A stretch of DNA of 64,000 bases from Candidatus Latescibacterota bacterium (GCA_007136405.1 SLHA01000048.1:1-64000), one strand, 5' to 3'; positions 47,260-52,559 are shown, numbered from the stretch's first letter. Numbers and translations are program-made. The notes: a model not told the origin generated them from the sequence alone.

Positions 47260-48042
47260 GTGAATACCATGATTGCTGCAGTAGTCGCAGCGCTGCTGCT
47301 GTTATGGGGCGGAATCGCCGGTCTGCTCAGGACGGTAGACCTGTTCGAGCGCAAACACATGCTGTTTCTGGGCGGCTACTGCACGCTGGTCGCCGGCAGC
47401 GTTTTGGCGTTGGTACTCTACATCAGCGCGGAGCGGCAGAGAGCCCATCGCCAGGATCTGCAGGCCCAGATGGAGGCTTTTGCCGGGCGCCTCAACCAGT
47501 TGAGTGAAAGCCTGATTCAGCAACTGGACGAAAAAGCGCAACTGACGGCATCAGAGTTCGAGATCCGGGTCAAGCTGCAGAACGAGATCCGTCATCACGC
47601 CCGCACGCGGGAAGAACTGGACGCAAAGTTTCAGGCCTACAACGAACTCAAGCGAACACTGGACCAGGAGCTGGAATCGCACCGGCACTACCGTGCCGGA
47701 ATCGAGCAGCGCCTGCAGGAACGGTTCGAACAGGAAGAAGCCCGGTACCGCGATCTCCATGACAATCTGCAGGCACAGAGGCGACTGCTACAAAATACCC
47801 ATCAGCAAATTGGAGCAGCGCAGGAGGATCTGGCCCGCATAAAAACGCAGACGGCCGGTATCCAGCAGACACAGACCAACCTTCTGGCCACGGTCAACAG
47901 TCACGTGGAGGTGTTTGGCAATCGCACTCAGGAGTTGGCGAACAAGCTGGATGCCCTGATCGCCAGCCAGGCGGAATCTCACGAGGCTATCAGCGTGGTC
48001 AAAAGCCAGGTTGACAGTCTTTACCAGTGGGAGGCCCAGTAG
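47260..48042 (+). CDS. Membrane-anchored coiled-coil protein of unknown function
   Basis: About 260 aa. Two N-terminal hydrophobic helices (MIAAVVAALLLLWGGIAGLL and FLGGYCTLVAGSVLALVLYI) are followed by a long coiled coil from RQDLQAQMEAFAGRLNQ to SQVDSLYQWEAQ, rich in Gln/Glu/Arg. GTG 47260 with GGGGAG upstream; ATG 47269 possible. No enzyme motif. It is paired with the coiled-coil lipoprotein 72 nt downstream, suggesting a two-component envelope scaffold. Confidence 0.72.
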   Translation: MNTMIAAVVAALLLLWGGIAGLLRTVDLFERKHMLFLGGYCTLVAGSVLALVLYISAERQRAHRQDLQAQMEAFAGRLNQLSESLIQQLDEKAQLTASEFEIRVKLQNEIRHHARTREELDAKFQAYNELKRTLDQELESHRHYRAGIEQRLQERFEQEEARYRDLHDNLQAQRRLLQNTHQQIGAAQEDLARIKTQTAGIQQTQTNLLATVNSHVEVFGNRTQELANKLDALIASQAESHEAISVVKSQVDSLYQWEAQ

Positions 48043-48114: not shown

Positions 48115-48945
48115 ATGCTACGCAGACACGCTGTCTGGCTCGTGGGTCTGGCCCTTGCGGCCGGCTTTCACGGTTGCGGTCCCAGTGAGGAAGAGCTGGC
48201 GCTGGCCCAGCTCGAGCAGGATATGGCTGAAGCCCATGCCGTTATCGACTCGCTAAACTATACCGTGGAATCGTCCAATCTGTTGATCAACGACCTGCGG
48301 GCCCAGGTGGACAGCACTCAGGAGGTCAACGAAAAGCTGCTGGCGTCCGTGCAGAACCTCAGCCGCGAAGTACGGGAATGGCGCCAGCTGGCCACGGAGT
48401 ACAGGCAGAGCAACGAGCGACTCACCGGAGAAATCGCGCAGCTCAGGGAGGCCAGACAAGCGGACCAGCGGACCATCGCCGCGTTGCGCAACGAAACAGA
48501 CAGCCTGACCACGGCCATGATGGAGGCCCACACCAACATCCGGCGCCAGAGCGACCAGATCCGGCAGATGGAAGAGCAGCTTACTATGGCGCATGATGAG
48601 GCTGATATGCTGCGCAGGGCGGACCGGGGCATCAGCCTGTTCGTGGGATCGGAGGATTTCCTGCGCGCCAATGGCTACCTGGATGTGAGCCGTTCGTTCG
48701 GCCGGGCGCTGCGACGCGTTTACCGCATGACCGCCAACCTGGATCCTAGCGCACCGGATGTGCGCGTGGTCGAGATCGGTGAGAGCTTCGTCCTCGAGGG
48801 TAATCTGGACTCCCTGGTGGACCGGTACGGGAAGCTGGACCGGGGCAATGATTACCGGGTGGATCGGATGAACGGGGCGGTCACGGTCACGTTCATCAAC
48901 AACCTGCTCGGCGGTGCCGACGTGGTGGCCATATTGCGCGACTGA
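48115..48945 (+). CDS. Coiled-coil lipoprotein of unknown function
   Basis: 276 aa. Signal peptide with lipobox ALAAGFHGCGPSEEE. Residues about 25-170 are a continuous coiled coil (LAQLEQDMAEAHAVIDSLNY ... RQMEEQLTMAHDEADMLRRA). The C-terminal globular part (FVGSEDFLRANGYLDVSRSF, VVEIGESFVLEGNLDSLVDR) ends in TFINNLLGGADVVAILRD. Not recognised. It is followed by a strong terminator and is likely cotranscribed with the preceding membrane coiled-coil gene. Confidence 0.72.
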   Translation: MLRRHAVWLVGLALAAGFHGCGPSEEELALAQLEQDMAEAHAVIDSLNYTVESSNLLINDLRAQVDSTQEVNEKLLASVQNLSREVREWRQLATEYRQSNERLTGEIAQLREARQADQRTIAALRNETDSLTTAMMEAHTNIRRQSDQIRQMEEQLTMAHDEADMLRRADRGISLFVGSEDFLRANGYLDVSRSFGRALRRVYRMTANLDPSAPDVRVVEIGESFVLEGNLDSLVDRYGKLDRGNDYRVDRMNGAVTVTFINNLLGGADVVAILRD

Positions 48946-48995: not shown

Positions 48996-49042
48996 AAGGC
49001 CATGGCCCTCTCGGAGATCATGCCGAGGGCCATGGCCTTTTT
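48996..49042 (+). terminator. Strong Rho-independent terminator
   Basis: AAGGCCATGGCCCTC pairs with GAGGGCCATGGCCTT (a two-base bulge near the loop), followed by TTTTT on the plus strand. It ends the coiled-coil gene pair; the ExbD-like gene converges from the other side. Confidence 0.9.
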
Positions 49043-49086: not shown

Positions 49087-49506
49087 TTACCAGGCATGCA
49101 CATATACTCCAGAGCGCACCTTCTTGCCCCGTTGGTCCACCGACAGCAGAGAATCGGCGTACATGGCGTGCTTGATCACGGTTTCCCTGCTGCCCCCGCG
49201 GACGAACAGGTGCAGATCGACCTCGGGTTCGGCAACCAGGCGTCTGACCATGCGCCTGAAGTCCCATTCGCTCATCTCCTGGGTCAAGGTATAACCATCG
49301 CGCGACAGACCCATGGCACTGCGGGTATAGATCATCACCACATCACCCTCAGCCGGATCATGCCGGTGCACGCGCCATACGGGTTGGGTGACGTTGAGAA
49401 TCATGATTCCCAGACTGAGCATCAGCATCATGATCCCTAGGAAGAGTTCCTTGCTGACATCGTGTTCTTCCGCCTGGTCTCCCACGCGTTGTATGAAGCG
49501 ACTCAT
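49087..49506 (-). CDS. ExbD/TolR-like protein
   Basis: 139 aa. One N-terminal membrane helix (LFLGIMMLMLSLGIMILNV) and a periplasmic domain (EVDLHLFVRGGSRETVIKHA). Topology and gene order match ExbD/TolR, which use proton flow to energise outer-membrane processes. The conserved TM aspartate is not where expected; Glu20 or Asp16 just before the helix might replace it (inference). Coupled to the ExbB-like gene by ATGA. No tonB is nearby. Confidence 0.75.
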   Translation of the reverse strand: MSRFIQRVGDQAEEHDVSKELFLGIMMLMLSLGIMILNVTQPVWRVHRHDPAEGDVVMIYTRSAMGLSRDGYTLTQEMSEWDFRRMVRRLVAEPEVDLHLFVRGGSRETVIKHAMYADSLLSVDQRGKKVRSGVYVHAW

Positions 49507-50282
49507 AATTCCAGCTCCGCGTCGTCACGCAGTTGTGTCCACTGCTCCTCCAGCAACCCTACTCTCTCGATCAGCGAGTCCACTATCTTGCGCAGCGGCA
49601 GATACGTGAGCAAGCCGGCCAGTGTGGTGGCAAAAGCAAGGACCAGACCTCCGGCCATGGCGCCCAAAACCCGAAAAGTCTCCGTGGCTGCGTCGATTCG
49701 CCCCAGTTCCTGCGCCACGAGCAGAATACCGCAAACCGTTCCCAGGTAACCATACAACGGTATGCGACCCATGTCGCGGCGGGCATTGGCCAGCGGAGTG
49801 CCCAGAAATCCGATGAGTTCCTCGATCAAGGCATCATCGCGCGTCTTCAGATCCGCATATTGGCGATGCCGCCGGCGCAGCCGATCCAGGACGCGGCGTC
49901 GCCGGTAACCCAGCGTGTACCGTCCGTATTGTTCCGGCTGACGCCACCCCCGTTCCTCCGCACGTAACAGCAGACCGCTGTGAATCAGATTGAACAGGTG
50001 GCTGCTGCCGGCCCAGGCGATGAGGACGTAGGAAAAGCGCCCCACCCACTCGATCCAGTGCACCTGGATATTCAGCGAGAGAAAATAGGCGCCCAGACTC
50101 CCGATGATCAGGCCGGCCATCACCCCGATGATGACCGCAATCAGTTGCAGATACGGAGCCTGTACTCCATAGGCCCGTTCGCGCTGGCGCATACGACGGG
50201 CCCGCAACAGCATGACCAAACCGCCAGTGGCTCCGCAGGCCACCAGAGCGAGTACACCGATAGTCACGATCAGCCAATTCAC
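49503..50282 (-). CDS. ExbB/TolQ/MotA-family proton channel protein
   Basis: 259 aa. Membrane helices around 5-26, 44-70, 176-193 and 207-229. The family core is GYLGTVCGIL (178-187) and AFATTLAGLLTYLP (216-229), with Thr219/Thr220 in the channel. A large basic cytoplasmic loop lies at about 105-170. GTG start overlaps the upstream stop (GTGA). It forms the channel with the ExbD-like product. Partners upstream (jelly-roll-like anchor and TPR protein) are not the usual TonB or Tol-Pal set. Confidence 0.85.
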   Translation of the reverse strand: MNWLIVTIGVLALVACGATGGLVMLLRARRMRQRERAYGVQAPYLQLIAVIIGVMAGLIIGSLGAYFLSLNIQVHWIEWVGRFSYVLIAWAGSSHLFNLIHSGLLLRAEERGWRQPEQYGRYTLGYRRRRVLDRLRRRHRQYADLKTRDDALIEELIGFLGTPLANARRDMGRIPLYGYLGTVCGILLVAQELGRIDAATETFRVLGAMAGGLVLAFATTLAGLLTYLPLRKIVDSLIERVGLLEEQWTQLRDDAELEL

Positions 50283-51487
50283 GTTTTCCAGACCTCATGG
50301 TTGAATTCCCGCCTCCAGCCCCAACCGATAACCAGTACATATATCCCCAGTCCGGTTGCTGCCGCGATCAACCCCCAGTTTTGTCGTCTGTGGGCCACCG
50401 GCCGCTGCAGTTCCGTCACGACGAGTTCCCAGACCGTGACGCCCTCCCGCACCGGACCCCGCTCCGGAGGAGGCTGGTAATCCGTTCTGCGGTCTTCCTC
50501 GCCTTCGGCCTCGGGTGGCCGGATGTCCTCGGCCGGGGTGGCCACCTCGACGCCTTTGAGTTCGCGCGGTTCGCGGAACAGCAGTTGCTGTTGCTTCGAG
50601 GGCAGTTCCTGCGCCCAGCTCTCCAGGTTTTCCGCCAGGGCCATGCTGTGCTCTTCGGCAAGGGGTCCGGCCTCACCCAGGCTGAACGCCAGCCTGCCCC
50701 GCATGCGGCCTTCGTAGCGGACTCCGGGTTGCTGGTGTTGCCAACGCGCGAGTGCCGCAGCAAGCTGGCGGCGACGCTCCTGCAGCTGGACCAGCCTGCT
50801 GACCACGTCGTGTCCCTGCATGCGCTGCTGTTCCATCCGCGCAGGAGGCTGAACAGGAGCCGTACGGGCGGCTCGCGTCACTGCACTACCGGAAAACTGG
50901 GCCTCCAGCTCTACGCTACCGAACAAATGCGCCCCCCAGATCACCCGAGCGCCGGGTATGTCCGGCAGACTGTGAGCATAGTAAATCTCGCTGGCGGGTT
51001 GACCCGCTGTCCACCAGCCATCCCTGCGTGTGGTCAGGACCGGACGCAGGCCGCTGTGATCACGCAGGTAGAACCCGGCCATGAAACCGCTTTCCACCCG
51101 GTCCGTGTCCCAACAGTGAGCCCTGACCCGGTTGACTTCCCGCAGGTAGATCGTCGGGATCTCTACGAGTATCGGAGTCAGGCGCGTGCTGCCCACATGA
51201 AAACCATTCAGGTAGACCCGGGCCTCGTCATCGGCCCAGAAGATCAGAACCAGATCGAATCCAGCCGGTACGACACCCTCTCCGGGACGTGATCGCGCCG
51301 CCAGATTTTCCAGATGGTCGCCCCCATGCAGGCGTGCCAGAGTGTCGATGCTGGCTGCCACCTGGTTGTACTCGCGGCGCAATTGCAGCAATTCGTCAGC
51401 CGCGCCCGCAGCAGGGGCGAACAGCCCCCACAAGCAGATCAACGGGATTGCCGCGATCAACGGATAGCGTCTCAGGTGCTCATTCAT
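50279..51487 (-). CDS. Periplasmic protein with jelly-roll-like module and C-terminal membrane anchor
   Basis: About 402 aa. Signal peptide MNEHLRRYPLIAAIPLICLW ending in PAAGA. A beta-rich region (LIFWADDEARVYLNGFHVGS, VRAHCWDTDRVESGFMAGFY) resembles galactose-binding or jelly-roll modules of glycosidases. A helical middle (SRLVQLQERRRQLAAALARW) and Pro/Glu-rich linker precede a C-terminal TM helix (WGLIAAATGLGIYVLVIGWG). Topology suits a periplasmic sensor or effector held by the inner membrane and driven by the ExbB/ExbD-like proteins. Family not recognised. Confidence 0.7.
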   Translation of the reverse strand: MNEHLRRYPLIAAIPLICLWGLFAPAAGAADELLQLRREYNQVAASIDTLARLHGGDHLENLAARSRPGEGVVPAGFDLVLIFWADDEARVYLNGFHVGSTRLTPILVEIPTIYLREVNRVRAHCWDTDRVESGFMAGFYLRDHSGLRPVLTTRRDGWWTAGQPASEIYYAHSLPDIPGARVIWGAHLFGSVELEAQFSGSAVTRAARTAPVQPPARMEQQRMQGHDVVSRLVQLQERRRQLAAALARWQHQQPGVRYEGRMRGRLAFSLGEAGPLAEEHSMALAENLESWAQELPSKQQQLLFREPRELKGVEVATPAEDIRPPEAEGEEDRRTDYQPPPERGPVREGVTVWELVVTELQRPVAHRRQNWGLIAAATGLGIYVLVIGWGWRREFNHEVWKT

Positions 51488-52559
51488 CGGGATCAGCATC
51501 GGTATCGGCATCATCAGCGGGCTCTTCGAGCTGATCGTGCAGTTCCTCCAGAGCCAGTCGTTGCTGGTTGAGACTGGCGCCCCGTTGCGGGCTTGTGGTA
51601 ACCTCCTCCAGCAGCTCCAACCGGAGAATCTCTCGCCTCAGAGAACCGAGTACCGCAGCGGCCATTTCCGGCTGCTCCAGGTCCCGCAGCGCTTCGATCA
51701 ACTGACGGTAGTCATCCGCCGTTGGCGCGTAGAAGCCGACCATGCGCTGCATTCGACGCACGGCTAACGGCAGACCGCTTGCCTCCTGAGCCGGCTGCAA
51801 AATGGTATCCGAACAGGCCGCCGCGTCTCCATCCACAGCGCACCAGTCCTCACGCAGGTTCTCCGCAAGATCCAGCCAGGCTTGCGCTTCGTCCTGGTAA
51901 CGCCGGGCATGGCTCTCTGCCACGATCTCTGCCATCGCGTGCAGTTCTCGGCTCCGCGCCATAGCGGCATGGATGATTTCCAGAGCACCGTCATGGTCTT
52001 CCAGGAAAGTATGGATATGGAACAGCGAAAGGAAGTCGGCACGACTTCTGGGATAGAAAGCGATCTCTGTGCGGGCTTGAGCCGCGCGACGGCGCATTTC
52101 GCCCAACATGCTCTGCAGGAGAGGATCCCATACCCGGTGCTGCAGGTCCGGCATCACCGCGGTAGCGCCTTCCAGCGCCTCCCGAGCCCGGGACGGTGCC
52201 CCCTTGTGATAATAAGCTCGAGCCAGATAGACCCAGATTTCGGCCTTGTACGGGTACGAGGCCACCGCCTCCTCGAACCGCTGGACCGCCTCCGCGAAAT
52301 CACGCGTGTCGTAGCTCAACCGCTTGTCGACGCCGAAACGGAGGCCGACGCCGGAATGGGTGTAATCGGCGTGCCGGTAGTGCTGTGAATCCGGAATCGG
52401 CAGGCGCTCATCGAAAAAATCCACCACTTCAACCACAGGATACGCGTCACGCGCATAGGGCGGCTCCGCATCCGGCGCTTGCGCCGCGGCGACCTGACCG
52501 ATGATCAACACCAGCAGACCGATCCACCAGACCAACCCGTGATGAACGTTCCCGCGCAC
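51480..52559 (-). CDS. Exported TPR-repeat protein
   Basis: About 359 aa from a tentative GTG 52559. Signal peptide GLVWWIGLLVLIIGQVAAAQ. TPR-type helices: FAEAVQRFEEAVASYPYKAE, IWVYLARAYYHKGAPSRARE and later repeats. C-terminal acidic tail (EEPADDADTDADPDE). First gene of the tightly overlapping series with the jelly-roll-like, ExbB-like and ExbD-like genes, so it is likely a periplasmic scaffold of that system. An ATG/GTG further upstream would overlap the SDR gene and is less likely. Confidence 0.75.
   Translation of the reverse strand: MRGNVHHGLVWWIGLLVLIIGQVAAAQAPDAEPPYARDAYPVVEVVDFFDERLPIPDSQHYRHADYTHSGVGLRFGVDKRLSYDTRDFAEAVQRFEEAVASYPYKAEIWVYLARAYYHKGAPSRAREALEGATAVMPDLQHRVWDPLLQSMLGEMRRRAAQARTEIAFYPRSRADFLSLFHIHTFLEDHDGALEIIHAAMARSRELHAMAEIVAESHARRYQDEAQAWLDLAENLREDWCAVDGDAAACSDTILQPAQEASGLPLAVRRMQRMVGFYAPTADDYRQLIEALRDLEQPEMAAAVLGSLRREILRLELLEEVTTSPQRGASLNQQRLALEELHDQLEEPADDADTDADPDE

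Follow-up and report, generated by a model that had tools for sequence, protein, structure and literature searches.

We describe here a locus of a Latescibacterota bacterium whose constant core is a row of three genes, for a jelly-roll protein (JR), an ExbB-like channel protein and an ExbD-like protein, with two convergent genes for coiled-coil proteins, CC2 and CC1, beside it. Relatives in the ExbB/ExbD family drive iron uptake and flagella, and the trio may be a divergent ion-driven 5:2 motor in which JR would be the transducer and CC1 and CC2 the linkers; we consider the chances of this reading to be evenly balanced. An envelope module of the ExbB/ExbD type without a known client, as proposed in a preliminary description of this DNA, is still the best reading of the locus, although the make-up of the unit and the term "proton-driven" both have to be amended. 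The module always comes with a putative transducer that resembles neither TonB nor TolA, and in a phylum that has no genetics it points to an envelope function not yet described.

The locus and its constant core

The window (the whole stretch of 64,000 nucleotides analysed here) belongs to a Latescibacterota MAG of 4.29 Mb. Four ORFs lie on its minus strand at 49087-52559 and overlap end to end by 8, 4 and 4 nt, as first described; they are real genes, because relatives in other genera encode them (35-74% identity). The gene list of the preliminary description omitted the conserved CC2 and CC1 on the opposite strand. The features, with the evidence used for each in brackets, are:

47260-48042, plus strand: CC1 coiled-coil protein, GTG start inferred from relatives (alignments, co-occurrence)
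48115-48945, plus strand: CC2 coiled-coil protein (alignment, alignment of the C-terminal domain, co-occurrence)
48996-49037, plus strand: terminator-like hairpin and U run in the gap where the two sets of genes converge (RNA fold -32.7 kcal/mol, z -4.0)
49087-49506, minus strand: ExbD-like protein, 139 aa (AF2 model, Foldseek, alignment)
49503-50282, minus strand: ExbB-like channel protein, 259 aa, GTG start (Pfam, PDB profile, alignment, hydropathy)
50279-51487, minus strand: JR, the jelly-roll protein, 402 aa (AF2, Foldseek, PDB profile search, alignment, hydropathy)
51480-52559, minus strand: TPR protein, 359 aa, GTG start, signal-peptide-like start (Pfam TPR, presence or absence in relatives)

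The hairpin is not listed by a consensus terminator scan, whose stem rule its stem exceeds. Many relatives have a possible 4-nt overlap of the ExbB-like and ExbD-like genes, or one of 1-13 nt between the JR and ExbB-like genes.

Our comparison set consists of 64 Latescibacterota genomes, all of them MAGs, 17 of which lie outside the class of the window. JR and the ExbB-like protein occur in the same 37 of the 64, and the ExbD-like protein in 36 of these 37, being missing only in G005, where the end of the contig cuts the locus. All 37 genomes belong to the window's class, the trio being found in none of the 17 from other classes, and in the loci read the order JR, ExbB-like, ExbD-like is kept and the genes are always adjacent. 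Of these 37, 36 have CC2 and 35 have CC1, the misses falling on short contigs; within the class the co-occurrence of motor and CC2 gives a Fisher p of about 0.001, which is not an independent-sample test since the genomes are related. The genes for an SDR, a CaCA exchanger, an amidohydrolase and an MDR protein that flank the locus are conserved in the window's own family only, and we have rejected them as members of the system for that reason; the flanks differ in two further families, f3 and f4, and CC2-CC1 still lies near the ExbD-like gene there.

Two genera are informative about how tightly the parts belong together. In genus g16 the trio, CC1 and CC2 stand at three separate sites (in G062 at 4.60, 4.86 and 1.42 Mb), and 10 of the 11 genomes retain all of them despite this separation, which looks like one event on the tree of ExbB plus ExbD. 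The g16 site of CC2 is distant from both the trio and CC1, and at L177 5065-7558, L178 5491-7899 and L179 5200-7639 the lone CC2 follows what appears, by eye, to be an outer-membrane efflux lipoprotein gene. Efflux genes of the RND or outer-membrane kind that adjoin ExbD or CC2 in g16 are no general feature and were rejected too. In genus g5 (G014-G017) the locus consists of TPR followed by converging CC2-CC1, and JR-ExbB-ExbD was found neither there nor elsewhere in these genomes; because f3 and f4 have the trio, its loss in g5 is the simplest explanation. The TPR and CC2 ends touch at the g5 loci (L180 5326-8794, L181, L182, L183), as in a clean loss of the trio. That g5 keeps CC1, CC2 and TPR implies a function for these three in the absence of the motor, and any claim of a single obligate machine is limited by this.

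The TPR partner of the preliminary description does carry a TPR domain (Pfam TPR_19, 37.4 bits), but its gene is an optional accessory and not a constant member, since seven genomes of the own family and all f3/f4 loci lack it, and it persists without the motor in g5. The proposed four-gene operon thus stands as a set of real genes, whereas the conserved unit is the trio with convergent CC2/CC1.

A scan of genome contigs with the single ExbB-like protein returned nothing, and an ExbD alignment was required to find relatives; among plasmids the ExbB-like protein had no match. The scan of named genomes used two short peptide motifs as queries, and would therefore miss distant relatives outside the phylum. 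The records found are labelled Latescibacterota or, for older ones, Gemmatimonadetes; we do not take the latter name as evidence of another phylum, identical contigs belonging to genomes placed in Latescibacterota. In UBA6620 (L072 7529-8285) the ExbD-like gene is split over two overlapping frames, by an assembly indel or as a broken gene.

The ExbB-like channel, the putative axle and the aspartate position

The assignment of an ExbB/TolQ-like channel is borne out. The protein matches Pfam MotA_ExbB (PF01618) at 27.8 bits, above the curated cut-off of 22.9, and its last two transmembrane helices align with TolQ (PDB profile search, E 0.003); Thr182 and Thr220, which align with the pore threonines of TolQ/ExbB, are invariant in 48 sequences from three families. 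Hydropathy suggests about five transmembrane stretches, two more than in ExbB.

For the ExbD-like protein, the predicted fold supports the first assignment while every sequence profile fails. It has no match in Pfam, NCBIfam or PDB profile searches, what the PDB search returned (designed repeat proteins included) being rejected as chance. PF02472 does not match any of 27 members at E 1, and in a genome scan at E 0.1 it finds five other ExbDs and not this one; hhalign against ExbD is not significant. The AF2 model, built from 27 sequences (pLDDT 79), begins with a long helix and continues with a b-b-b-a-b-a-b domain; TolR tops its Foldseek list, with several ExbD/TolR periplasmic domains at probability 0.5-0.9, all at E >0.05. 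On this model an ExbD/TolR fold is likely but not proven. The alignment also contains an invariant motif, HDxSKE(L/I)FLGIMM.

The single N-terminal transmembrane stretch (21-39) carries no charged residue in 27 of 27 aligned sequences, the nearest acid being Glu20, invariant in all of them. When the register is set by the length of the helix that follows the aspartate of ExbD, the invariant Gly24 falls at the position of that residue and Glu20 one turn lower, and in this likeliest register Gly24 would replace the essential Asp; an alternative register puts Glu20 itself at the position, and the Asp is absent in either. Among 47 canonical ExbDs encoded by this genome and its relatives the same column holds Asp in 42 and Asn in five. 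According to a review, ExbD, TolR and PomB, like MotB, have an absolute requirement for the transmembrane Asp (PMC12905483). The description of the machine as "proton-driven", which is an inference, is weakened by the absence of this residue.

The main rival explanation starts from the same observation. If Asp has been changed to Gly and the helix is uncharged in every sequence, the trio could be a non-conducting relative of ExbBD, that is, a structural or sensory scaffold tethering JR and both coiled-coil proteins to the inner membrane. We think that this is a serious possibility of about half the weight of the motor. Against it, a dead channel would not need both pore threonines, invariant over three families, and the invariant Glu20 lies a single turn away from where the Asp is usually found. 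Moreover, the acid may sit elsewhere in such motors: in GldLM the essential one is a glutamate of the ring protein (GldL Glu49) and not an axle aspartate (PMC8986121). If the trio is a motor, Glu20 may be the residue that carries ions. A strongly conserved relative without the "required" Asp and with an invariant Glu nearby amounts to a natural experiment on proton handling in motors.

It could also be argued that we are dealing with an ordinary extra ExbB/ExbD pair, which energises a TonB encoded elsewhere and has JR, TPR and the coiled-coil genes as chance neighbours. The locus itself has no TonB, TolA, TolB or Pal, as first reported, and TonB_C and OmpA-domain genes do exist elsewhere in the genome. 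TonB_C, however, is found only on contigs C8 and C128, and the TonB on C8 adjoins its own ExbB and two ExbDs, in a separate and conventional TPR-ExbB-ExbD-ExbD-TonB system (G000:C8:37580-39515; L001, L190). Beyond this TonB system, three further genes of the MotA/ExbB family lie elsewhere: an ExbB/ExbD pair on contig C99 and, separately on the same contig, a MotA-like gene next to one for an OmpA-domain protein, and an ExbB-ExbD-ExbD set on contig C75. With those on C8, C99 (two) and C75, the set of the window is a fifth, distinct one. Since JR is never apart from the ExbB-like protein in 37 genomes, the ExbD-like protein is distant from the ExbDs encoded alongside it in these genomes, and JR-free copies beside TonB have so far been absent in relatives, we regard the ordinary pair as the least probable of the explanations discussed here, and a very improbable one.

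The jelly-roll protein, the coiled coils and a possible mechanism

The jelly-roll-like module and the C-terminal anchor proposed for JR have both held up, the first by the predicted fold and weakly by profile, the second as a hydrophobic stretch at 372-390 in the hydropathy plot. The protein begins with a signal-peptide-like start and a helix, continues with a predicted beta-sandwich (about 78-199) and coil regions, and ends in the C-terminal transmembrane helix; the alignment also contains a conserved RRxDYxPP stretch. Foldseek matches the model to a GH2 beta-glucuronidase (E 0.006), and residues ~77-150 match the GH2 sugar-binding domain 7sf2 in a PDB profile search (E 0.13). Fold and profile agree, each being weak alone, and together they point to a jelly-roll resembling the sugar-binding domains of GH2 enzymes. 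Two of 23 JR members also touch Pfam DUF4982.

CC1 has two N-terminal transmembrane stretches and a long coiled coil, and CC2 a conserved C-terminal domain (residues 168-276) that has no relative in Pfam or PDB and that may resemble Bacteroidota coiled-coil lipoproteins. Weak matches of CC1 and CC2 to SMC/Rad50 models were set aside as coiled-coil composition. In most of the own family CC2 starts like a lipoprotein, and in f3/f4 it has a transmembrane anchor, so that the type of anchor changes within one orthologous family (window 48115-48945; L068 9282-10229); the lipobox in the window, FHGC, is non-canonical. A further CC2 paralogue of lipoprotein-like character lies outside the motor locus in family f3 (L184 6378-7196, L185 6594-7412). 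A gene that looks by eye like a sigma-70-type factor lies just past CC1, on the same strand, in f3/f4 (L059 10508-11362, L068 11679-12539, L070 3442-4302, L071 10659-11612, L072 10250-11095).

The lipoprotein-like start of CC2, together with TolR at the head of the fold matches to the ExbD-like protein, could suggest a Tol-Pal-like or gliding-like machine for envelope constriction or surface movement, with JR in the place of TolA or Glt and CC2 as Pal or another outer-membrane lipoprotein. We find this improbable, though less so than the ordinary pair: TolA, TolB and Pal are absent from the locus, in which no gene is recognisable as Glt-like either, JR and CC2 have no TolA, TolB or Pal match in Pfam, CC2 is membrane-anchored in f3/f4, and separate OmpA-domain genes on other contigs of the genome could be Pal. 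A search of 20 relatives for the GldM family gave no match, which is weak evidence because the search also missed its Bacteroidota control.

We thus return to the motor. The trio would encode an inner-membrane, ion-driven motor of the ExbBD/TolQR type (5:2), with ExbB-like subunits as the pore ring and two ExbD-like chains as the axle, bearing periplasmic domains of the ExbD/TolR type. TonB and TolA are anchored at the N terminus; JR would replace them as force transducer with reversed polarity, its membrane helix being C-terminal, and CC1 in the inner membrane and CC2, lipoprotein or membrane-anchored, may connect the motor to a client in the cell wall, the glycans or the outer membrane. This reading is supported by the shared distribution and constant adjacency of the three genes, by the MotA_ExbB match, the invariant threonines and glutamate and the TolR/ExbD-like model, by the agreement of fold and profile on a sugar-binding-like domain in JR, and by CC1 and CC2, which accompany the trio in three families while other neighbours change and persist in g16 without linkage to it. 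It is weakened by the lack of the transmembrane Asp (PMC12905483), by Foldseek E values above 0.05 and the failure of every profile to recognise the ExbD-like protein, and by g5, where CC1, CC2 and TPR do not strictly depend on the trio.

Comparison with known systems

In the neighbourhoods of 32 named loci and in the 64 genomes we recognised these genes as part of no TonB, Tol-Pal, Agl/Glt or gliding system already on record, and no described system matching the JR-ExbB-ExbD module was found in the open-licence literature. We would go one step further only tentatively, and suggest a separate class of ion-driven envelope motor. It would be restricted to one class of Latescibacterota; its proton carrier may have moved to a Glu one turn below the Asp position, and a lectin-like, C-anchored transducer with two coiled-coil linkers may serve a glycan or cell-wall client.

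The Vibrio TonB2 system, which adds TtpC, a TPR protein and DUF3450 to ExbB-ExbD-TonB (PMC6957404), is similar in having extra envelope partners, a TPR protein among them. The set of the window, in contrast, has no TonB and no DUF3450 match above the cut-off. We know of no counterpart of JR in the Vibrio system. With ExbB-ExbD(-TonB) in general it shares adjacent channel and axle genes and ExbD periplasmic domains among the fold matches, but it lacks TonB, is not recognised by PF02472 and has no transmembrane Asp, the TonB system of this genome being on another contig. The likeness to TolQ-TolR(-TolA) lies in the alignment of the ExbB-like protein with TolQ, both pore threonines included, and in TolR as the top PDB fold match; TolA, TolB, Pal and the transmembrane Asp are absent, however, and a C-anchored JR stands in place of TolA, with convergent coiled-coil partners. 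GldL-GldM is a precedent for a motor of similar shape, driven by the proton-motive force, whose essential acid is not an axle Asp (PMC8986121), whereas the ExbD-like protein of the window is short, with a predicted ExbD/TolR-like domain and no GldM shaft. Finally, JR matches the sugar-binding jelly-roll of GH2 enzymes (PDB 7sf2, 8dhv) by profile and by fold, but it has no glycosidase domain, and its sandwich would be carried by a periplasmic protein with a predicted membrane anchor.
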